Below are positions 7,218-34,685 of a DNA stretch of 50,655 nt, in pieces. A model generated the notes under the pieces. It worked only from the letters and a program-made list of their open reading frames with translations, searched no databases and had not been told where the DNA came from. Numbering within the stretch: position 1 is the stretch's first letter; each line of letters opens with the position of its first letter. This DNA is from an uncultured Pelagibacteraceae bacterium (GTDB lineage Bacteria; Pseudomonadota; Alphaproteobacteria; Pelagibacterales; Pelagibacteraceae), in contig CACHKE010000008.1 in NCBI GenBank assembly GCA_902580335.1, positions 1 to 50,655 on the forward strand, given 5' to 3'. A program made the position numbers and the translations under genes.

Positions 7218-8843
7218 ATGCTGTTAGATGGATTTTTTGAAACTTTAAATGAGTTTGCAGAAATAATAAAAAAAAAATTCAGAGGTTTTTATCAAAATTC
7301 AAGTTTATACGAAAAAAAGATTTCTCAAACTTTTGATAATGAGTTTACATACAAGCCAAGTCCTCACTTACTTTCATCGATAATCAAATATCAAAATAAG
7401 AAATATAAAATTGAAGATTTTGAACTAGAGACAGTTTGGAATAGCCAAATTAAACCTAAAGATTTTGAAAAATTAAACAATTTTTTTTGGTTATTTACTC
7501 TTGACTTAAAATCCTCAAAAAATTCTGTGAAAAAAGTTATAACAAATTGGATAACCAACAATAGTCACTTTAAAAAAGAAAGTTGGGAATTTGATATGAC
7601 TGCTAAACGTATTATTTCATTCTTATCTAATCACCCACTTACTTATGACGACAATGATAAAGAATACAAATTAATGTTTGATCACATGATCCAGAAACAA
7701 ACAAATCATTTATTAAACGAGATAAAAAACTCTAAAGATTTAGAAAACAAAATAATTGGTTGTTCAGCAATAATTTTGGTAGGGTTATGTTACAAAATTG
7801 AAAAAGACTATTTAAATATTGGTTTAAGTTTTCTAAAAAAAATTACTAATTCCTTAATAGATAATCAAGGTTTTACAAATTCACGGAATATAAAACAATT
7901 AATATTTTTTTTAAAATATTTTATAATTATTAGAGAATGGTTTAAAGAGTCTCAGGTTGAGGTTCCAGAACACATAGAGGAAAATATTTATTATTTTGGA
8001 CAAAGTTATGCTTTCATAAGACAAAATATAAACGTAGATCTTCTATTTAACGGTAATAATAAGTCTAATACTCAAGATTTTGATCATTACTTAAGGAGAC
8101 TTGGTTATAAATTTAAAAATGAAAATAAAGATTGTGGTGGTTATATAATTTTGAAAAATAAAAAAATTTGTATAGCAATGGATGCAGGATCCTCACCAAA
8201 TTCGAAATATACTCAGGATTATCAATCAGGTGCTCTCTCATTTGAAATAATTTCAAATGGAAAAAAACTTATAACCAATTGCGGTTATTACAAAAAAAAT
8301 AATCAAGCCCTTAATGAGATATCAAAATCTTCAGCTACACACAGTACTTTAATAATTGATGATAATTCCTCGTGTAAATTTACAAAAAAAAAAGATAAAT
8401 TAATTTTAAAAACAGGATTAAGAATTACTCAAAAAAATTCTATATATGAGAAAAATTATTGGAAAATCAGTGCTGCTCATGATGGATACTTTAAAAAATT
8501 TAGATCAATTCATCAAAGAAATATCGAATTTTTTCCTGAGCAAATGAAATTTGTAGGAAATGATAAGATTATTAGAAAAAAAAATAATTTTAATTTTAAG
8601 TTTGATATTCGATTTCATTTAGAACCAAATATTAAATTAATGAAAACTCAAGATAATAAATCCATTTTAATAGAATTAGAGGATGAGGGTTGGAAATTTA
8701 CTTGCGATAATTATGAGATTAATATTGATAATGGATTATACTTCGGTAATGAAAATTCATATATTGAGAACCAAAATATTTTTATATCTGGAATATTAAA
8801 TGATAATGAAGAAAATATTAAATGGGAAATTAAAAAAATATAA
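7218..8843 (+). CDS. Heparinase II/III-fold protein
   Basis: A 541-residue protein with an all-helical N-terminal half (residues 1-270, toroid-like) and a beta-rich C-terminal half. The C-terminal half carries family features: AMDAGSSPNSKYTQDYQSGALSFE near residue 318, LITNCGYY, and SSATHSTLIIDDNSS near residue 370, where the histidine is in the typical place. The family includes polysaccharide lyases acting on uronic-acid glycans. No signal peptide is visible, which is odd for a lyase acting outside the cell. In alphaproteobacteria a homologue commonly sits beside purH, so this copy is probably ancestral and its real substrate unknown. The last A of its TAA is the first base of the purH ATG. 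Confidence 0.85.
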   Translation: MLLDGFFETLNEFAEIIKKKFRGFYQNSSLYEKKISQTFDNEFTYKPSPHLLSSIIKYQNKKYKIEDFELETVWNSQIKPKDFEKLNNFFWLFTLDLKSSKNSVKKVITNWITNNSHFKKESWEFDMTAKRIISFLSNHPLTYDDNDKEYKLMFDHMIQKQTNHLLNEIKNSKDLENKIIGCSAIILVGLCYKIEKDYLNIGLSFLKKITNSLIDNQGFTNSRNIKQLIFFLKYFIIIREWFKESQVEVPEHIEENIYYFGQSYAFIRQNINVDLLFNGNNKSNTQDFDHYLRRLGYKFKNENKDCGGYIILKNKKICIAMDAGSSPNSKYTQDYQSGALSFEIISNGKKLITNCGYYKKNNQALNEISKSSATHSTLIIDDNSSCKFTKKKDKLILKTGLRITQKNSIYEKNYWKISAAHDGYFKKFRSIHQRNIEFFPEQMKFVGNDKIIRKKNNFNFKFDIRFHLEPNIKLMKTQDNKSILIELEDEGWKFTCDNYEINIDNGLYFGNENSYIENQNIFISGILNDNEENIKWEIKKI

Positions 8844-10719: not shown

Positions 10720-10794
10720 TGGAGCGGGCAAAGGGGGTCGAACCCTCGACCTTCTCGTTGGCAACGAGACGCTCTACCACTGAGCTATGCCCGC
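10720..10794 (-). tRNA. tRNA-Gly (anticodon GCC)
   Basis: The minus strand folds into a full cloverleaf of 75 nucleotides. The acceptor arms GCGGGCA and TGCCCGC pair over 7 bp, followed by the discriminator T and an encoded CCA. The D arm contains AGCTCAGTGGTAGAGC, the anticodon stem TCTCG/CGAGA encloses the loop TTGCCAA with anticodon GCC, and the T arm contains GGTTCGA. It reads GGC and GGU glycine codons. Gene symbols differ between genomes, so none is given. Confidence 0.97.
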
Positions 10795-10919: not shown

Positions 10920-11768
10920 TTAATAATTTAATTCTTTTAAATTTTTTTCAAAAATATTATTTAATTTATCAACAAATTCTTTATTAAAGTTTTTTTGCCA
11001 ATTATTCTTAGGTCCCAAATGGAAAAAAGGTATCTTTTTTTTTTCTTTGCGAGAGATGATGGACTCACTAAATCCATTCATTTCTTCTATACTTTTCAAG
11101 TTTTCAAAAGAAGTAGTTTTGACTACGTTTTTAGCTTTTTCTCTATTAAATCCACTTTTATTATTTGTCAGTTTATCTATAAATTCTATTATCTCTTTAA
11201 ATACAAAAAAAGTTTCTGACAATAAATCTTCATACTTTAAAAATTTTATTGGTAATAAGTTATTATTTTTCCAAGATTGATAATTTAATTCCCAAGAACT
11301 AATAAATTGATAATCACTATAATCCTTTTTCTTTTTAAAGTCGTAAGTAAAGTTTTTTTTGTCTTGCATTACCTCTAAAGCTTTATCATGATCGATTTGA
11401 AAATGTCTGGACATGGAGTCTAGGACATTTCTAGGATCTCTTACTATATAAATTCCACCTAGCGAATTAGCTCGATTTGTAAAGTCATTATTTCCCAATT
11501 TCACTAAAGCATTATGTGTCTTGAAAAATTTTATTTTTCGGTCTTCGTTAATTTTTTCTTGAGCTAAAACCCAAAACTTTGAGGTATCTCCTGGTATTGA
11601 TAAATCATAATCAAAACTTTCTAAATATTTTTTTACAGGAAACTGTTGAACGTTCTTTAAATGATTATCACCGAGAAAAATACCATCTTTTGTATAATAA
11701 TAAGCACTTATTAACGATCTTAACCATGTGTTCCCATTTTTAGGATAAGAGGCGAGCCAAATTATCAT
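10920..11768 (-). CDS. PAPS-dependent sulfotransferase, paralogue 1
   Basis: A 282-residue cytosolic-type sulfotransferase that would move sulfate from PAPS to an unknown acceptor. The 5'-phosphosulfate loop is YPKNGNTWLR (residues 8-17), the likely catalytic base is H85 in FKTHNAL, and the 3'-phosphate site is IVRDPRN (residues 108-114) followed by SMSRHF. The C-terminal GPKNNW stands where classical enzymes have RKGxxGxW, but the Arg-Lys pair is replaced by His-Leu. No signal peptide. It shares the ends MI(I/V)W and ELNY/ELDYL with two other copies at 22387 and 33843. It stands alone between tRNA-Gly and a LON-domain gene, opposite to the latter, and probably has its own promoter in the 50-base gap. 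Confidence 0.9.
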   Translation of the reverse strand: MIIWLASYPKNGNTWLRSLISAYYYTKDGIFLGDNHLKNVQQFPVKKYLESFDYDLSIPGDTSKFWVLAQEKINEDRKIKFFKTHNALVKLGNNDFTNRANSLGGIYIVRDPRNVLDSMSRHFQIDHDKALEVMQDKKNFTYDFKKKKDYSDYQFISSWELNYQSWKNNNLLPIKFLKYEDLLSETFFVFKEIIEFIDKLTNNKSGFNREKAKNVVKTTSFENLKSIEEMNGFSESIISRKEKKKIPFFHLGPKNNWQKNFNKEFVDKLNNIFEKNLKELNY

Positions 11769-20495: not shown

Positions 20496-21011
20496 ATGAC
20501 AACGATTGTGTTAGTTAGAAAAAACAACGAAGTGGTAGTAGCTGGTGACGGTCAAGTAAGTATGGGCAATACTGTCGTAAAAAGCACTGCCTCAAAAGTC
20601 AGAAAAATTGAAAAGAGAGATGTCGTAGCTGGTTTTGCTGGATCAACAGCTGATGCATTAACTTTATTTGAAAGATTAGAGGGTAAATTAGAGAAACATG
20701 CTGGTAACTTATCTAGAGCTGCTGTGGAGTTAGCTAAAGATTGGAGAACAGATAAATATCTAAGAAGATTAGAAGCGCTAATGGCAGTCGGTGACAAGAA
20801 CAATAGTTATATAATTTCAGGGACTGGTGACGTTCTAGAGCCTGAAGGAGACGTTATAGGTATTGGCTCTGGTGGTAATTATGCTTTAGCTGCAGGAAAA
20901 GTCTTAATGGAAAGTAATATTTCAGCAGAAGAAGTCGCAAAAAAAGCTATAAAAGTTGCGGCTGATATCTGTGTATTTACAAATGAAAATATCAAAGTTG
21001 AAAAAATTTAA
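20496..21011 (+). CDS. hslV: ATP-dependent protease subunit HslV
   Basis: Threonine peptidase chamber of the HslUV (ClpQY) protease. The protein starts [11 protein letters not shown], and removal of Met exposes the catalytic Thr1. [17 protein letters not shown] carries the proteasome-like Asp and Lys, and [12 protein letters not shown] near residue 125 is conserved. 171 residues is close to the E. coli 176. An in-frame TAA at 20490-20492 lies two codons before the ATG, so no longer start is possible, and no Shine-Dalgarno sequence is present. The stop overlaps the hslU start as TAATG. Confidence 0.97.
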
Positions 21012-22384
21012 TGGATAAATCAAACGTAACTCAATTGCATCCTAAAGGTGATCAGCAAAAAGAAGAGGCTTCATTAGTAAGCTCTTTGTCACCAAGAGAA
21101 ATTGTCTCTGAATTAGACAGGTTTGTTGTCGGTCAAAATAAAGCTAAAAGAGCAGTTGCTGTTGCTTTACGAAACAGATGGAGAAGACAAGCTTTAAAAG
21201 GTGAAATGAGAAATGAAGTTTTACCTAAAAATATTTTGATGATTGGACCAACGGGTGTTGGAAAAACAGAAATTTCAAGAAGACTCTCTAAATTAGCAGA
21301 AGCTCCTTTTGTAAAAGTTGAAGCAACTAGATTTACTGAGGTGGGTTATGTTGGAAGAGATGTAGAACAAATTGTCAGAGATTTAATTGAAATAGCAATT
21401 TCAATGGAAAAAGTTAAAAAAAGAAAAGAGGTCTACGCAAAAGCTCAAAAATTAGCTGAAGAAAAAGTACTAGATGCTTTAGTTGGTAAAAAAGCAAGTG
21501 CGGCTACAAGAGAAAGTTTTAGAAAAAGACTCAGAGATGGTGATCTAGATAATAACGAAATAGAAATAGCTGTCAGTGAAAGTGGTGGTAATAGTACATC
21601 ATTTGAAATTCCTGGAATGCCAGGCGCTAATGTAGGAATGATCAATATTGGAGAGATGCTTGGAAAGTCTATGGGTAAACAAGAAAAAAAGAAAAAAATG
21701 ACTGTAAAAGAATCTCACGAAATTTTAATAAATGATGAGTCTGATAAGTTGATTGAACAAGATAAAATAATTAAAGCTGCAAAGATCTCTACAGAAAATA
21801 ATGGGATAGTTTTCTTAGATGAAATAGACAAAATTTCTGGAAGAACAGACCGGGTTGGTGGAGATGTATCTAGAGAAGGTGTGCAGAGAGATTTATTACC
21901 TTTAATTGAAGGAACAACAGTCAATACAAAATATGGACCTATAAAAACTGACCATATATTATTTATTGCTTCTGGTGCTTTTCAATTAGCCAAGCCTTCT
22001 GATTTGCTCCCAGAGTTACAAGGAAGACTGCCAATCAGAGTTGAGCTAGAGGCTTTATCAAGTGAGGATTTTAAAAGAATTCTTAAAGAACCTGATTTTA
22101 GTTTAATTAAACAGTATGTGGCTTTGTTAAAGACTGAGAATGTTGAGCTTGAGTTTACTGAAGATGGAATTGATGCAATCGCTAATATTGCTTCAGAGGT
22201 TAATGCAACTGTTGAGAATATAGGTGCTAGAAGATTACACACAATAATAGAAAAAATCCTTGATGAAATCAGTTTCACAGCAACTGATAGATCTGGTGAA
22301 AAAATCTCAATAAATAAAGAATATATAAATAAAAACCTTGATAATCTTGTTAAAGATACTGATTTATCAAAATTTATTTTATAA
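21011..22384 (+). CDS. hslU: ATPase subunit HslU of the HslUV protease
   Basis: AAA+ unfoldase that feeds substrates to HslV. The 457-residue protein begins with a 27-residue polar tail that E. coli HslU lacks, then [33 protein letters not shown]. Walker A is [10 protein letters not shown] near residue 78, followed by [17 protein letters not shown] (the pore and I-domain entry); the I domain covers about 120-240; Walker B is [12 protein letters not shown], and the sensor regions are [12 protein letters not shown] and [10 protein letters not shown]. The C-terminal DLSKFIL tail is the segment that docks into HslV. Coupled to hslV by a 1-base overlap. Confidence 0.98.
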
Positions 22385-22386
22385 AA

Positions 22387-23235
22387 TTATAGATAATCTA
22401 GCTCTAACATTTCTTTTTGGAATGAATTTTCAATTTTTTTAGTCAAGGTATTATCTAAATAATTTCTCCAATCATTTTTTTTTCCCAAGTTAAAAAAAGG
22501 TATACTTTCTCCTGTTTTTTCATTTTTTTTTGACTCAAAAAAACCTTCTTTTTTTTCCAGTTTTTGCATTTTATCAAAATCAGTAGATGCGATAGAATTC
22601 GCTAATTTTTTTTTATCAATTGAAATCTTTGAATTTCCGAGTCTATAAATAAAATTTAAAACATTGACCAATATTTTTTCAGGATTCTGCAACAAATCCT
22701 CATATTTCACCAACATATATCTATTAGATTTATTTAATTGTTTCCAAGAATTGTAATGAAAATTCCAGGAACCAACATGGGTTGGGGGATGAGTTTTTGA
22801 GTTGACACCAATAATTAATTCATTTGTAATATCAATTACTGATTGTTCTTTTGTTTTTTTAAAATGTTTTGAATAAGATGTTACCACATTTCTAGGATCT
22901 CTTACAATATGTATCGCGCCAAGTGTAGTTTCGAAACTTAAGAATTTATAATTTCCAATTGAGGCACAGCTGCTGTGTGTTTTTACAAACTGTATACTAT
23001 TTTTATTTCCCAATTTATGAATAAATTGTTGAGCTTTAAGATAATTCTTATTTTGTTCTGCTTGATTTTTAAAATCTATTCCTAATTTATCAAAAATAAA
23101 TTTGTTTGGAAATTGAATAGTATTTTTTAATAAATCAAAATTAAATAATCCATCATTAGAGTATATATATGAGGAAATTAAAGATCTCAAATATGTATTT
23201 CCACTTTTTGGAAAAGATGCCAGCCAAACAATCAT
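22387..23235 (-). CDS. PAPS-dependent sulfotransferase, paralogue 2
   Basis: A 282-residue protein of the same subfamily as those at 10920 and 33843. The PAPS loop is FPKSGNTYLR (residues 8-17), the likely catalytic base is H87 in FVKTHSS, and the 3'-phosphate motif is IVRDPRN (residues 110-116) followed by SYSKHF. Near the C-terminus NLGKKNDW replaces the usual RKGxxGxW, and it ends ELDYL. Its ATG overlaps the stop of the TPR gene (ATGA, 23232-23235), so the pair is co-translated, which makes the TPR protein a possible partner or substrate carrier. It ends two bases from the convergent hslU stop. Confidence 0.9.
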   Translation of the reverse strand: MIVWLASFPKSGNTYLRSLISSYIYSNDGLFNFDLLKNTIQFPNKFIFDKLGIDFKNQAEQNKNYLKAQQFIHKLGNKNSIQFVKTHSSCASIGNYKFLSFETTLGAIHIVRDPRNVVTSYSKHFKKTKEQSVIDITNELIIGVNSKTHPPTHVGSWNFHYNSWKQLNKSNRYMLVKYEDLLQNPEKILVNVLNFIYRLGNSKISIDKKKLANSIASTDFDKMQKLEKKEGFFESKKNEKTGESIPFFNLGKKNDWRNYLDNTLTKKIENSFQKEMLELDYL

Positions 23236-24452
23236 TTTAATTTTGAATCAATAAAATTTGATTTAAAAATATCATCTGAGATTTTTTTATATGTTGTGTC
23301 ATTAATCTTTTTTGCAAAATATAACCAATTTCTAAAAACTAAAACATCTTGAAGGAACAAACCTTTTGAAGATACATTTGAAATTCTAAAAATATTCAAA
23401 TTTGGATGTTTTTTATCAAAATTTTCCTCAACAGTAGGCTCCCATTTCTTTCCAACATCTGAATATTTACTATCTAATTTTTTATATTCAGGATAAGAAT
23501 TTCCAAATTCTGTACACCCTTTTTTTATCTGCATGTCAAAGTTTAAATTTATTTTATCTTTTAATTCTTCTTTAATTGATTCTGCTTGATTTAAACTTTC
23601 ACAATAAATTAAACCTTTATACATATCATCAATGTTTGGTCTTAACTCTATCATGCATTTACGTGTAAGATTATTTTTGAAATTATATTTATTAAAAAAA
23701 ATATGTAGTTTGATTAGATCTACTACGTTTTTTACACTTATTTGGATCTTAAAACAGCTAAAACAAAACTTTGGAATAACTTTGAATTCATTGAAGATTT
23801 TTTTATGTCTTGAGCAATTTAAATATCTCGAGCTTCTTCGATAAAGTTGAGTTCCATTATATTCTAATAAGTTAAAATTTTTTTTTATAATGAGGTTTGA
23901 GCTGTTATAAAATTTTACAATCTCGCCCTCTAGATCTTGATCATAATAAAAACTTTTATTTAACTTATTAATTTGATTATTTAATTTGACATATATATTT
24001 TCATTAACTACCTCATGCATAGTTAAGGCATTTATCAAATTATTTCTTGCTGCATTATTGTTTTGATTAAATTTCAGACATTTAATAAAATATTCAATAG
24101 ACTCTTTTACTTTACCTGAATTAAACATTAAGGCACCAATAAAATTATAAGGTTGGTCAAATTTTGGATTTATTTGAATAATTTTTTCAAAATCTTTTAT
24201 AGATTCTTTTAAGTTTCCTATGTTAAAGTAACATAAAGCTCTTAAATTACGACTAGCTATATCATCATTGTTATAAGAAATTATTTTACTAGTTGAATTA
24301 ATGCAATCGCTAAAATGATTTAATGAAAACTCTGCTTTTGCTTTTAAATAATAAAGGTCTAATTTTTCGTTATTATTTGTTAAAGCTTTATTTATAATTT
24401 CAAGAGCTTTTTTTGCGTCTCCATTATTTATCAGCTCATTTATTTTAATCAT
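23232..24452 (-). CDS. TPR protein with a Cys/His metal-site-like C-terminal domain
   Basis: A 406-residue cytosolic protein. Residues 1-145 are about four tetratricopeptide repeats (for example ASRNLRALCYFNIGNLKESIKDF and QPYNFIGALMFNSGKVKESIEYF). Residues 165-406 form a second domain that I cannot name. It holds C213-x2-H216-x13-C230-x2-C233, spaced like a small zinc site, then a mixed alpha/beta region with two further cysteines. TPR repeats fused to sulfotransferases are common in marine bacteria; here the repeats sit on a separate protein whose stop overlaps the sulfotransferase start. It may bind the acceptor protein or glycan carrier for that enzyme, which is inference from coupling only. 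Confidence 0.8.
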   Translation of the reverse strand: MIKINELINNGDAKKALEIINKALTNNNEKLDLYYLKAKAEFSLNHFSDCINSTSKIISYNNDDIASRNLRALCYFNIGNLKESIKDFEKIIQINPKFDQPYNFIGALMFNSGKVKESIEYFIKCLKFNQNNNAARNNLINALTMHEVVNENIYVKLNNQINKLNKSFYYDQDLEGEIVKFYNSSNLIIKKNFNLLEYNGTQLYRRSSRYLNCSRHKKIFNEFKVIPKFCFSCFKIQISVKNVVDLIKLHIFFNKYNFKNNLTRKCMIELRPNIDDMYKGLIYCESLNQAESIKEELKDKINLNFDMQIKKGCTEFGNSYPEYKKLDSKYSDVGKKWEPTVEENFDKKHPNLNIFRISNVSSKGLFLQDVLVFRNWLYFAKKINDTTYKKISDDIFKSNFIDSKLK

Positions 24453-24453
24453 T

Positions 24454-24888
24454 TTATTTTTTTTTTAAGTGAATATAGAATGCTCCTTTTCCACCATCTT
24501 CAATTTTTGCATCTTTGATTTCTATAATTTTTTTCATTAATTCTTGATTGCTTTTTATATATTCTGGAACGGAGTATTTCAAAATACTAAGGTCTCTTGA
24601 AACATATGGATCTTTTTCTACATTAGAGTGAAGTCCTTTTCCTGTGACAACAATAATCTTTGAAACTCTATTTTGATAACAGTCATCAATAAATTTTGAT
24701 ATTGTTTTATTGGCTTGCTCTAATGTACAACCGTGAAGATCAATATGTTTAATTTTGATTGAGTTTTTTTTTTCTAATTTGATATCTTTATTTGGTAATT
24801 TTTCATCGCTAGATATAAACTCTTCCCAATCCGTTTTGTCTTTATCTGAAATATTATTTTTTTTTTTATCTGAATTGTAGTTGGTCAC
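24454..24888 (-). CDS. Smr domain protein
   Basis: A 144-residue protein with a charged, disordered first 45 residues and a C-terminal Smr domain, a putative nuclease fold related to the end of MutS2. Diagnostic parts are HIDLHGCTLEQANKTISKFI (the DLHG motif, around residues 48-67), IIVVTGKGLHS (the TGxG loop) and GGKGAFYIHLKKK at the end. A stand-alone Smr gene near hslU, tim44 and secB is usual in alphaproteobacteria. It starts one base from the tim44-like gene and ends one base before the TPR gene. Confidence 0.93.
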   Translation of the reverse strand: MTNYNSDKKKNNISDKDKTDWEEFISSDEKLPNKDIKLEKKNSIKIKHIDLHGCTLEQANKTISKFIDDCYQNRVSKIIVVTGKGLHSNVEKDPYVSRDLSILKYSVPEYIKSNQELMKKIIEIKDAKIEDGGKGAFYIHLKKK

Positions 24889-25485
24889 TTACGTGAGGGT
24901 ATCTACTAACTGCCAATTTGGGTTATTAGTGCTAGTATCTCTTGAAAATACCCATGTGTCGTAAATTTTCTTAATCTTTTCCGGGTTTCCAGATACTATT
25001 TTTTTATCTTTATCTCTGATGCAAGTTATTACTTCACCTACAAACTCTACGGTGACCTGTAGGATTTTGCCCAAATACTTGTGTTCTTTAACATTTGCTG
25101 AATTTACCCCAATAAATGTAATTTCAGCGAAATGACCCCTCTTAGTTCTTTCTCTTAGTGCTGTATTAAATTGATCGTAAATCTTGTTACTCAATAAAGG
25201 CTTGCTTGTCGTCAATTTGTTATCACTATCACCAAAGTCTGTGATGATAGTTTCGTAAGCTATTTTAGCACCTTTTAAGAAATCTTTTTTTGCATTTTCG
25301 TCAAAATCAGTTTTTTTATTAATTTTGGATTTAGGATTAATATTTTTTAAAACTTCTTCAAATTGAGGTGAGGTCTTTCCCTCAAAACCTGTTCTTTTTC
25401 CTAAAATTCCTCGAAGTCTTAAAAAAATAAAACCAGCGATCATTGCCAATAAAATAATATCAATATATTCAAAACTGTAATTCAT
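24889..25485 (-). CDS. Tim44-like domain protein (TimA family)
   Basis: A 198-residue protein with one N-terminal hydrophobic segment (residues 6-24, IDIILLAMIAGFIFLRLRG) that probably anchors it in the inner membrane, a polar linker, and a C-terminal Tim44/NTF2-like domain. Family features are FLKGAKIAYETIITDFGDSD, LLSNKIYDQFNTALRERTKRG, and the closing VDTWVFSRDTSTNNPNWQLVDT pattern (here KKIYDTWVFSRD). Bacterial relatives are the alphaproteobacterial cousins of mitochondrial Tim44; their job is not settled. It is divergent from fxsA and lies near secB, which fits a link to protein export. Confidence 0.92.
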   Translation of the reverse strand: MNYSFEYIDIILLAMIAGFIFLRLRGILGKRTGFEGKTSPQFEEVLKNINPKSKINKKTDFDENAKKDFLKGAKIAYETIITDFGDSDNKLTTSKPLLSNKIYDQFNTALRERTKRGHFAEITFIGVNSANVKEHKYLGKILQVTVEFVGEVITCIRDKDKKIVSGNPEKIKKIYDTWVFSRDTSTNNPNWQLVDTLT

Positions 25486-25542
25486 AGATTAAATTTAATT
25501 ACTATGTTGATTAATTTCAACTAACAATTACATTAAAGACAA

Positions 25543-25968
25543 ATGAACACAGTACTTTTAGCTGTAATTTTAATCCCAATTTTAGAGATATACCTTTTTA
25601 TTAAGATTGGGTCTCAAATAGGAGCTTTCAGCACCATATTTTTGGTATTTTTTACTGCGGTTGTAGGAGTTTACTATGCCAGATACGAAGGAATTAACAC
25701 TCTGAGATCTGGAATGATGCAAATAATTAAAAATCAAATTCCAGCCCACGAATTAATTTCTGGTGCCGCAATAGCATTTGCGGCTGTTCTGTTAATCATA
25801 CCAGGATTTGCAACTGACCTGATTGGTTTCCTATTGATCATCCCAATAACACGAAAGTTAATGTTAGGAAGATTTAATAAAAAATTTGAAAATAAAGAGA
25901 TGAAAAAGAATGATTTTATTGAGGGGGAATTTGAAGATATAGAGGATGACAATGACAGAAAAATTTAA
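25543..25968 (+). CDS. fxsA: FxsA-family membrane protein
   Basis: A 141-residue integral membrane protein with three or four helices in the first 105 residues and a charged acidic tail (EFEDIEDDNDRKI). VILIPILEIYLFIKIGSQIGAFSTIF and the RYEGINTLRSGM segment are characteristic of FxsA, a protein whose excess blocks phage T7 exclusion by F in E. coli; its normal task is unknown. PGFATDLIGFLLIIPITRKL is the usual last helix. The 3' end overlaps the secB start by 17 to 23 bases. Confidence 0.92.
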   Translation: MNTVLLAVILIPILEIYLFIKIGSQIGAFSTIFLVFFTAVVGVYYARYEGINTLRSGMMQIIKNQIPAHELISGAAIAFAAVLLIIPGFATDLIGFLLIIPITRKLMLGRFNKKFENKEMKKNDFIEGEFEDIEDDNDRKI

Positions 25969-26374
25969 AATTTTAGCAAAATACATAAAAGATATGTCTA
26001 GCGAGACACCAGATGTTGAAACTTACATATCTGCAGGAAATAACATGGGTAAATATCAATTAGATATCGATATCAAGTCAATAGCCCTTAAAAATAAAAT
26101 GATTGAGGTAAATATAACATTAAAATTTCAACACAAAGACACTCAAGTTAAAAAATCTTATTTTGAGATTGTTTACGCAGCAGCAGTAAAAATTGAGGAA
26201 TCTATTAAAGAAAAAAAAGATCTAGAAAAAATTGTTCTATGTGATGTCCCTAATTCAGTTTATCCAGATTTAGAAAAATCATTTTTAGATATGATGCATA
26301 ATTCTGGATACCCTAAACTCAAATTGGAAAAAAAAATTGATTTTACAAAACTTTATTTAGAAAAATTTAATTAA
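25946..26374 (+). CDS. secB: Protein-export chaperone SecB
   Basis: Holds presecretory proteins unfolded and hands them to SecA. The 142-residue protein matches SecB in length and core: YIKDMSSETPDVETYIS at the start of the fold, NMGKYQLDIDIKSIALKNKMIEVNITLKFQ (the paired strands), YFEIVYAAAVKI, and the acidic helix region LCDVPNSVYPDLEKSFLDMMHNSGYPKL. Two in-frame ATGs (25946 and 25952) are possible starts. It overlaps fxsA and is convergent with dnaQ, sharing 4 bases. Confidence 0.94.
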   Translation: MTMTEKFKILAKYIKDMSSETPDVETYISAGNNMGKYQLDIDIKSIALKNKMIEVNITLKFQHKDTQVKKSYFEIVYAAAVKIEESIKEKKDLEKIVLCDVPNSVYPDLEKSFLDMMHNSGYPKLKLEKKIDFTKLYLEKFN

Positions 26375-27033
26375 TAAAAGTTTTTTTTAAGAGATGTCTT
26401 TAGATAAATTTGATGATTTTTAAGTTCCTCTGAGGATGGTTTAACAATCTTAGTAGAATAAATAACTTTTCCAGTATTTAATTTTGAAACGTTTTGTTCT
26501 AAATCTTTAAAGTCTAAAGTTGGCTCTTTTTGATCTATCAAATTTATATAAACCTTAAATAACAAATCACAGTCAATAAGCGCAGTATGTTGGACCCTTT
26601 TTGAATTGTCTATCCCATATCTCTTACATAAAGCATCCAAACTATTTTGGGATCCTGGGAATTTATTTCTTGCCAATGATACCGTATCTACAACTTCATT
26701 ATCAATTTTGTTTTTTCCGATGATCTTAAGTTCATTATTTAAATGAGATAAATCAAATTCTGCATTGTGAATTATTAATCTTTTATCTTTTATAAATCTA
26801 AGAAAATCATCAGCTATTTCTCTAAATTTCATTTTGTCTGATAAAAAACTATCTGAATATCCATGCACTTCGAAAGCCTTTTCAGAAACTTTTCTCTCTG
26901 GATTTAGGTAGCAGTGAAATTTATTTTTTGTTGGTATTAAATTGTCTAGTTCAATACATCCAATTTCAACAACTCTATGGCCCTCCTTGACTGAAATACC
27001 AGTGGTTTCTGTGTCTAGAACAATTTCTTTCAT
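26371..27033 (-). CDS. dnaQ: DNA polymerase III epsilon subunit (proofreading exonuclease)
   Basis: 3'-5' DEDDh exonuclease that edits replication errors. ExoI is VLDTETTG (residues 5-12, with the metal-binding DxE), ExoII is IHNAEFDLSHLNNEL with the Asp, and ExoIII is HTALIDCDLL with the catalytic His and Asp. The last 40 residues would hold the clamp- and alpha-binding tail. 220 residues is slightly under the E. coli 243. Its start overlaps the coaE stop (ATGA). Confidence 0.95.
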   Translation of the reverse strand: MKEIVLDTETTGISVKEGHRVVEIGCIELDNLIPTKNKFHCYLNPERKVSEKAFEVHGYSDSFLSDKMKFREIADDFLRFIKDKRLIIHNAEFDLSHLNNELKIIGKNKIDNEVVDTVSLARNKFPGSQNSLDALCKRYGIDNSKRVQHTALIDCDLLFKVYINLIDQKEPTLDFKDLEQNVSKLNTGKVIYSTKIVKPSSEELKNHQIYLKTSLKKNFY

Positions 27034-33842: not shown

Positions 33843-34685
33843 TTATAGATAGTCAAGTTCAATTAACTCATTTTTAAGTTTAGTTTCAAGTTCTATTTGA
33901 ATGTCTTTTGGTAGCGAATCTTTCCAATTATTATCAGGGCCTTTATTAAAAAATTTTACTTTTTCATTTGTCCCTTTTACAAAAACATTTTCTGTAAACT
34001 TACCATTTTCCTCTATCTTTTTTAAAGCTTCAAAAGAGGTTGATTTAATAACATTCTCTTTTTTTTTATCCGAGACTTCCAAATCGATGAATTTTTTAAT
34101 AAATGCAATAATTTTGTCAATTTCTTGATGTATATTTTTTACCAAGTCCTCATATTTAATAACTAATAAATTTTCATTATTATTTGTCCAAAACTTATAA
34201 TGTTCTTTCCACGAGCCAAGATACGTAATTACGTTTCCACCCCTCAATTCAATTTCTTTACCAGGAGAAAGAATTTTTGATGTAAGGAGAAACTTTTTAG
34301 ACTCTTCAACAGATTTACTGAAATGATTTGATATGGAGTCAATAAGATTTCTGGGATCTCTTACAATGTAAATGGTGCCTTTTGTACATTCTTTATTTGT
34401 AAAAGGATAATTATCAACTTTACAATTTAAATGATGTGTTTTGAAAAATTTAATTTCATTATCTAAATTAATTCTTTGTTGAGATGTAATCCAGTGCTTC
34501 TTAATTTCATGAATATTATTGTAATCTTGGGTGAAATATTCAAAAAATCTCCTTTGTGGATATTGGTCAATTTTTTTTATACTGGGAAAATCAAATATTC
34601 CATCCTTTGTATAGACTAGAGAAGAAATTATGGATCTGATCCATGTATTTCCGCTCTTCGGATATGATGCTACCCAAATAATCAT
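33843..34685 (-). CDS. PAPS-dependent sulfotransferase, paralogue 3
   Basis: A 280-residue relative of the genes at 10920 and 22387. The PAPS loop is YPKSGNTWIR (residues 8-17), the likely catalytic base H84 in FFKTHHL, and the 3'-phosphate motif IVRDPRN (residues 107-113) followed by SISNHF. The C-terminal NKGPDNNW is the nearest of the three to the classical RKGxxGxW, and it ends ELDYL. It lies between rho and mnmE, on the opposite strand, one base after the rho stop. These two genes are normally adjacent in alphaproteobacteria, so this copy looks like an insertion. No repeats or mobile-element genes flank it. Confidence 0.9.
   Translation of the reverse strand: MIIWVASYPKSGNTWIRSIISSLVYTKDGIFDFPSIKKIDQYPQRRFFEYFTQDYNNIHEIKKHWITSQQRINLDNEIKFFKTHHLNCKVDNYPFTNKECTKGTIYIVRDPRNLIDSISNHFSKSVEESKKFLLTSKILSPGKEIELRGGNVITYLGSWKEHYKFWTNNNENLLVIKYEDLVKNIHQEIDKIIAFIKKFIDLEVSDKKKENVIKSTSFEALKKIEENGKFTENVFVKGTNEKVKFFNKGPDNNWKDSLPKDIQIELETKLKNELIELDYL

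Follow-up and report, generated by a model that had tools for sequence, protein, structure and literature searches.

A sulfotransferase and a TPR protein with a cysteine-rich C-terminal domain as a candidate sulfation pair in SAR11 bacteria

Analysis of the window (the whole stretch of 50,655 nucleotides from contig CACHKE010000008.1 of an uncultured Pelagibacteraceae bacterium) centered on two overlapping genes, one for a sulfotransferase (ST) and the other for a TPR protein whose C-terminal domain (CTD) falls outside named families. Judged from sequence, the CTD constitutes a genuine family, and its neighborhood with ST genes is strongly enriched and phylogenetically broad. The source genome comprises 1.0 Mb in 26 contigs and is 84.75% complete.

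The ST gene (positions 22387 to 23235, minus strand) encodes 282 amino acids and the TPR-CTD gene (23232 to 24452, minus strand) encodes 406. As an earlier note on this DNA had claimed, both reading frames are open and share an ATGA at positions 23232 to 23235 (minus strand), where the TPR-CTD stop overlaps the ST start. The same note had placed this cassette between hslU and smr, which the sequence confirmed with both flanks named by eye: the smr-like gene (24454 to 24888, minus strand) lies upstream, 1 base from the TPR-CTD start, and hslU (21011 to 22384, plus strand) is convergent, 2 bases from the ST stop, both being outside the cassette. The ORF list gives a minus-strand order of smr, TPR-CTD, and ST, with a 1-base gap and then the ATGA overlap, and the pair may have been appended to what is plausibly an smr operon, at its 3' end. 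According to Pfam and the structural model, the TPR region (residues 1 to 147; 24012 to 24452, minus strand) is made of helical pairs, and it matched TPR family PF07719 with 49.8 bits against a cutoff of 27. The note had also described a 240-residue domain starting at about residue 165; a C-terminal domain with no family match is indeed present, but its start lies nearer residue 193, because residues 153 to 192 were modeled as helices following the TPRs. The nearest named carriers of the CTD among the best 80 of 121 relatives were Pelagibacteraceae single-cell contigs, i.e., SAR11. Two Pelagibacteraceae single-cell contigs (L028 and L029) match the window in gene order across positions 20496 to 27033 and keep the ATGA; dN/dS for the TPR-CTD gene was 0.155 and 0.199, and for the ST gene 0.056 and 0.071. 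The pair is under purifying selection in both contigs; since gene order and overlap are shared and dN/dS ranges from 0.056 to 0.199, the pair is not a product of chance.

One genome scan returned 121 relatives of the CTD, the best 80 of which were kept as loci for a survey of neighboring genes. Genes were taken as longest-ORF picks, and an ST neighbor was defined as an ORF of at least 150 amino acids with the ST P-loop pattern. ST-motif ORFs occupied 34 of the 154 slots adjacent to the CTD, 10 of 142 at distance two, 5 of 139 at distance three, and 2 of 463 at distances four to eight, an enrichment near the CTD with a Fisher value of 6e-20, which ignores relatedness. Counted by locus, an ST-motif ORF was found next door in 32 of 80 and within two genes in 35 of 80; the remaining 45 had none within two genes, some loci ending at contig edges. 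When the CTDs were clustered by identity, which removes relatedness only partly, an adjacent ST was present in 3 of 6 groups at 50%, 10 of 26 at 60%, 20 of 43 at 70%, and 22 of 53 at 80%; one 13-member group had an adjacent ST in none, and some genomes may duplicate species already among the 80 loci. The Magnetovibrio locus (L105) had no ST motif within two genes. The P-loop pattern missed the Pfam-confirmed ST of locus L168, and probably also the neighbor in L051, and few of its matches were Pfam confirmed. Among the neighbors of the CTD, long ORFs with an inner ST motif (TPR-ST fusions by eye) outnumbered single-domain STs, the motif lying near the N terminus in short ORFs and far inside long ones. 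ST neighbors were found in both orientations, and therefore shared transcription is not a general rule. The corresponding genome-level comparison, made with 40 of the 46 CTD-positive genomes and 40 controls (33 of the same genus and 7 of other genera), was uninformative, with PF00685 in 39 of 40 CTD-positive genomes versus 31 of 33 same-genus CTD-negative genomes and 1 of 7 other-genus controls.

Twelve more distant CTD places, outside both the 80 loci and the window's genus, were assembled from G633, G462, G802 (four places), G787, G873, G947, G1294, G1349, and a Thalassobaculum plasmid. Viral proteins were left out, and a doubtful match in G482 (37.8 bits over 41 positions) was dropped. In 11 of the 12 places an ST was fused to the CTD, adjacent to it, or within four genes, as recognized by Pfam (G462, G633, G802, and G787), by annotation (Thalassobaculum), or by the P-loop motif (G873, G947, and G1349); the exception, G1294, is a contig of 3,010 bases that ends near a PqqD-like gene. 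Fusion into a single ORF was observed in two genomes of one genus. The protein encoded at positions 3 to 2879 of L168 (G802), open at the contig edge, has a CTD (residues 198 to 402), TPRs, and a Sulfotransfer_3 domain (residues 718 to 906; E value of 4.5e-42), and that encoded at 7641 to 9578 of L172 (G787) has a CTD (residues 56 to 250), TPRs, and Sulfotransfer_3 (residues 457 to 639; E value of 2.2e-20), with the CTD N terminal to the TPRs in both. In G633, the TPR-CTD protein shares its first 60 residues with a TPR-ST protein encoded by a convergent gene. The description of the two genes as a modification pair is thus well supported by neighborhood enrichment, by recurrence, and by fusion into a single ORF elsewhere, and the conserved co-occurrence that the note had named beforehand as refutable does appear in the locus survey. 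Separately, large repeat or autotransporter-like proteins were seen by eye near the TPR-enzyme genes of L168 (3736 to 7701) and L172 (14277 to 14999) and are possible acceptors.

The CTD also occurs without TPRs. Such homologues were found in four putative lasso-type peptide clusters that contain an ST gene (G462, Thalassobaculum sp. OXR-137, G873, and G947), together with PqqD-like, Asn-synthase-like, and HprK-like genes (the HprK-like assignment in Thalassobaculum being by eye). PqqD exceeded the Pfam cutoff in G462 and G947; lasso B2 exceeded its cutoff in G947 and G873, was annotated in Thalassobaculum, and was not seen in G462. The cyclase-like proteins of G462 and G947 showed partial similarity to lasso cyclases, below the NCBIfam lasso cutoff, and that of G873 was scanned in Pfam only. 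In each cluster the Asn-synthase gene is immediately preceded, on the same strand, by a short ORF of 51 to 75 amino acids with the motif [KR]-x-[WY]-x-x-P-x-[LF] and, in 4 of 4, a C-terminal Ser (L145, 1622 to 1828, plus strand; L151, 7412 to 7639, minus strand; L166, 7598 to 7771, plus strand; L167, 611 to 766, plus strand). These ORFs are only candidate RiPP precursors, because the motif was set after the first example and the loci contain other short ORFs with it, a slightly looser pattern giving 15 short ORFs in five loci. No evident lasso ring acceptor was seen by eye in the cores. Since the parts following the motif have no Tyr, Ser or Thr would be the site, were these peptides sulfated. 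Phosphorylation of a C-terminal Ser by proteobacterial lasso kinases is reported in the available passages of PMC8498205, and by analogy the C-terminal Ser of the precursor-like ORFs would fit such a target. Beside the window pair, no lasso B1/PqqD, B2, or cyclase gene was seen by eye in the window's ORF lists. Phage tail-collar-type proteins lie near two of the peptide clusters (L145, 497 to 1036, PF07484; L167, 11469 to 11999, by eye).

Carriers among the best 80 of the 121 relatives include SAR11, Prochlorococcus, SUP05, Magnetovibrio, and others. With the window's own genome counted each time, the CTD was matched in 46 of 397 genomes of its order, 3 of 289 of its class, and 5 of 398 of its phylum; with the center genome counted, it was matched in 3 of 303 genomes in the class of G947 and in 2 of 190 in that of G462, one of the latter being doubtful. 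Searches of phages with the window protein, with the L105 CTD (also against plasmids), and with the TPR-less queries L108 and L145 found no match, and the sole match of the TPR-less queries L145 and L151 was the Thalassobaculum plasmid, which is L151's own record. In single-sequence scans of viral contigs, the window CTD and the G462 homologue found none and the L108 query found only the same viral protein. That protein is a TPR-less CTD homologue with 27% identity on IMG/VR contigs (L108, 5815 to 6588, and L109); by eye its neighbors are phage structural-like genes, and the ST motif was absent from the DNA fetched. A role in defense was considered, and PADLOC gave no match.

The CTD proper (residues 193 to 406; 23235 to 23876, minus strand) is predicted to have a Cys-rich entry, a beta-alpha-beta-beta-alpha-beta core, and a helical tail. 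Searches against Pfam, NCBIfam, PHROGs, and PADLOC gave it no above-cutoff model, and PDB sequences gave no match at E values up to 10. The note had named a match to a well-known enzyme unrelated to modification as a refutation, and no enzyme family in these libraries or the PDB was matched above cutoff. A sub-threshold hit to S-AdoMet_synt_C at residues 259 to 336 (E value of 0.019; 15.3 bits against 25) was taken as chance. When 62 members were scanned with Pfam, the 25 families listed, of 61, were TPR or other helical-repeat families. AlphaFold2 modeled the full protein with a pLDDT of 91.8 and a pTM of 0.90. Because fold searches with this model were filled by TPR matches, the CTD was also modeled alone (pLDDT of 88.4; pTM of 0.86), and Foldseek found no PDB match to this model at E values up to 0.001. 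The best VIA row for it had a Z score of 6.1 with an rmsd of 3.5 over 100 aligned residues, eIF4E rows being tied; the eIF4E-like rows (Z scores of 5 to 6.1) were discounted, as the tool's own note reads Z scores under 8 as possibly a mere common arrangement.

The note had given C213, H216, C230, and C233 as a C-x2-H-x13-C-x2-C site, and all four residues are at those positions (codons within 23754 to 23816, minus strand); C-x2-H followed by 10 to 18 residues and C-x2-C was present in 111 of 113 CTD ORFs scanned, duplicates counted. In an alignment of 62 proteins, 61 with a TPR match, the invariant residues include C213, H216, C230, C233, K235, K265, E269, R271, K310, and C313, as well as E315, W337, E342, W376, and D385. 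In a varied set of nine homologues that included two TPR-less bacterial forms and the viral one, C213, C230, C233, C313, K235, K265, and D385 were invariant in 9 of 9 but H216 was not. H216 is kept in TPR-less G1349 and missing from all four peptide-cluster homologues; E315, R271, and W376 are missing from some TPR-less forms. C313 (codon at 23514 to 23516, minus strand, within a K-x-G-C motif) was invariant throughout all alignments made. The proposed site therefore stands for its three cysteines and not for H216, and is better read as four invariant cysteines (213, 230, 233, and 313), with H216 variable; they may form a metal site, which would probably hold zinc. Were the core of the model ferredoxin-like, C230, C233, K235, K265, K310, and C313 would lie at one edge of the sheet.

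The ST of the window belongs to PF00685 (E value of 2.3e-24; 86.6 bits against the Pfam cutoff of 22). It carries PKSGNT at residue 9, which we take to be the PAPS-binding P-loop, KTH at residue 85, and RDPR at residue 112, presumably the RDPR-type motif of Sulfotransfer_1, and PAPS-dependent sulfate transfer is predicted. Used as a query, it found matches in 22 of 61 genomes, its own included, with several copies in some; ST genes are present in most SAR11 genomes tested, often more than one. Two further single-gene STs lie within the window amid core-type genes (10920 to 11768 and 33843 to 34685), the former with a variant P-loop, PKNGNTW, and near a tRNA-Gly at 10720 to 10794. The same genome encodes an ATP-sulfurylase (PF01747; 126.5 bits against 24.3) and an APS-kinase-like protein (PF01583; 48.7 bits against 21.1, over positions 5 to 82 of 152 only), both under the NCBIfam cutoffs, and their genes are consecutive with that of a pyruvate-kinase homologue between them (L210, 123 to 2866, on contig C3 of G000). 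A PAPS supply by the genome itself is likely, though not proven.

The explanation that we favor, and to which we give an even chance, is that the ST and the TPR-CTD protein act as a single sulfation unit. The ST would transfer sulfate from PAPS, probably made by the genome itself, to a protein or peptide of ribosomal origin; the TPR part would bring in this acceptor, and the CTD, as a small alpha/beta domain with a putative Cys4 site, would dock the ST or hold or prime the acceptor. The metal, the adaptor role, the protein or peptide acceptor, and a physical complex are what we infer within this scheme. Another reading is that the CTD and ST genes are functionally unlinked, independent cargo of common SAR11 insertion sites. 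The hslU C terminus was searched in 41 genomes and matched in 40, and 30 loci were examined, 23 of them from the window's genus. Among those 23, the interval was empty in 15, held another gene (186 to 217 amino acids) in 5, an ST alone in 2, and an ST with TPR-CTD in 1, the window itself being the sole such holder. The view that hslU and smr are usually close was accordingly borne out for the 15 of 23 same-genus hslU loci, among those returned, in which they are direct neighbors, and not for the 8 that are interrupted. The site is empty in G014 though its hslU C terminus is 99% identical. One of the five alternative genes matches methyltransferase models; a methyltransferase-like gene occupies the site in G003 (L182, 855 to 1508), and therefore the site swaps cargo. 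Since G015 and G021 keep an ST at the site with no CTD match in these incomplete genomes (58% and 74% complete), the ST is not strictly "dedicated" to its partner, as had been proposed. Cargo that differs between genomes would suit separate insertion, as would the window's two other STs, which are lone genes, one of them near a tRNA-Gly. In a tRNA scan of 12 hand-picked loci, guided in some by upstream tRNA-like readings, 11 (L040, L050, L051, L056, L060, L079, L088, L092, L093, L099, and L104) had the same tRNA-Gly(gcc) upstream of the CTD gene at a distance of up to about 1.3 kb, and L028 had none; this suggests a common insertion site. Separate cargo is nevertheless hard to reconcile with the fusions, the kept ATGA overlap, and the association of CTD and ST in other contexts outside SAR11, so that this reading is already unlikely and we give it very little credence.

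Within a functional pair, a CTD that would present the acceptor as an adaptor is plausible, with an enzymatic CTD close behind in likelihood. In the latter case the CTD would itself modify the ribosomal acceptor that the ST sulfates, either ahead of the ST or following it, with the TPRs bringing the acceptor as in nearby TPR-sulfotransferase and TPR-methyltransferase proteins, and we regard this as a serious possibility with a somewhat less than even chance. In G802, G787, and G633, the CTD occupies the C-terminal place that methyltransferase or ST domains take in nearby TPR proteins, whereas in both fusions it is N terminal to the TPRs. The polar residues K235, K265, and D385, invariant across the varied homologues, would suit a catalytic site, and E269, R271, K310, E315, W337, E342, and W376 are invariant in the 62 aligned proteins; however, some TPR-less forms lack three of these (E315, R271, and W376). 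The CTD is found among tailoring-type genes in the peptide clusters, yet it has no significant match to an enzyme fold or family. Those clusters also weigh on the nature of the acceptor. Small molecules or sugars are often the substrates of Sulfotransfer_1 enzymes, and some SAR11 CTD loci have sugar- or small-molecule-type genes by eye, so that the pair might decorate the envelope by sulfating a surface glycan or small molecule; we consider this improbable given the homologues in peptide-type clusters and the fusion to TPRs, commonly protein-binding repeats. Returning to a ribosomal acceptor, a broader proposal, which we offer tentatively and think rather doubtful, is that the CTD represents an undescribed metal-dependent peptide- or protein-modifying domain family working with STs on ribosomal substrates, free in a sulfated, phosphorylated lasso-type pathway and TPR guided in SAR11 and Prochlorococcus, which are among the most abundant marine cells.

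Parts of such a system have precedents. In the passages available for FlmG, a TPR-glycosyltransferase for flagellin, a TPR part is carried on a protein-modifying enzyme and its interaction with flagellin was tested by two-hybrid analysis (PMC7591256). FlmG resembles the present protein in its N-terminal TPRs and in cytoplasmic protein modification; unlike it, FlmG has a GT-B glycosyltransferase as its C-terminal domain, whereas here the CTD takes that place and a gene of its own encodes the transferase. Kinase-containing lasso clusters of Proteobacteria, as described in parts of PMC8498205, share with the TPR-less CTD loci PqqD, cyclase-like, and HprK-like genes, B2 (in 3 of 4), and precursor-like ORFs ending in Ser; they differ in that these genes are all absent from the SAR11 cassette, that a CTD gene is added, and that by eye the cores show no evident ring. 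Groups of lasso-type genes that include an ST appear in passages of PMC8498205, PMC4289311, and PMC10040529 and likewise combine an ST with lasso machinery, although those passages report no functional test and do not name the CTD; in Pontixanthobacter-type genomes, lasso B2, two sulfotransferases, PqqD, Asn-synthase, and a hypothetical protein have close cluster numbers (PMC10040529). RaxST, which sulfates a tyrosine of RaxX, is by its description a bacterial sulfotransferase with a ribosomal peptide as substrate, and a TPR or CTD partner is not named for it there. A SAR11 table in PMC2217521 shows an ST gene adjoining a pilin gene, a hint of surface proteins and no more. In the open-licence PMC literature, as far as titles, abstract starts, and passages go, no description of the pair or the CTD was found. 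Sulfotransferases, TPR-guided modification, and ST genes in lasso-type groups are already known, and the CTD as their common partner would be new.

Together, these results point to an unstudied route of protein or peptide sulfation. The CTD partner, the likely PAPS genes, and the TPR-less homologues in peptide clusters make the target of SAR11 sulfation a testable question. If confirmed, the pair would assign a role to a domain that is widespread and missing from the family libraries searched, and would tie protein sulfation in ocean bacteria to the tailoring of ribosomal peptides.
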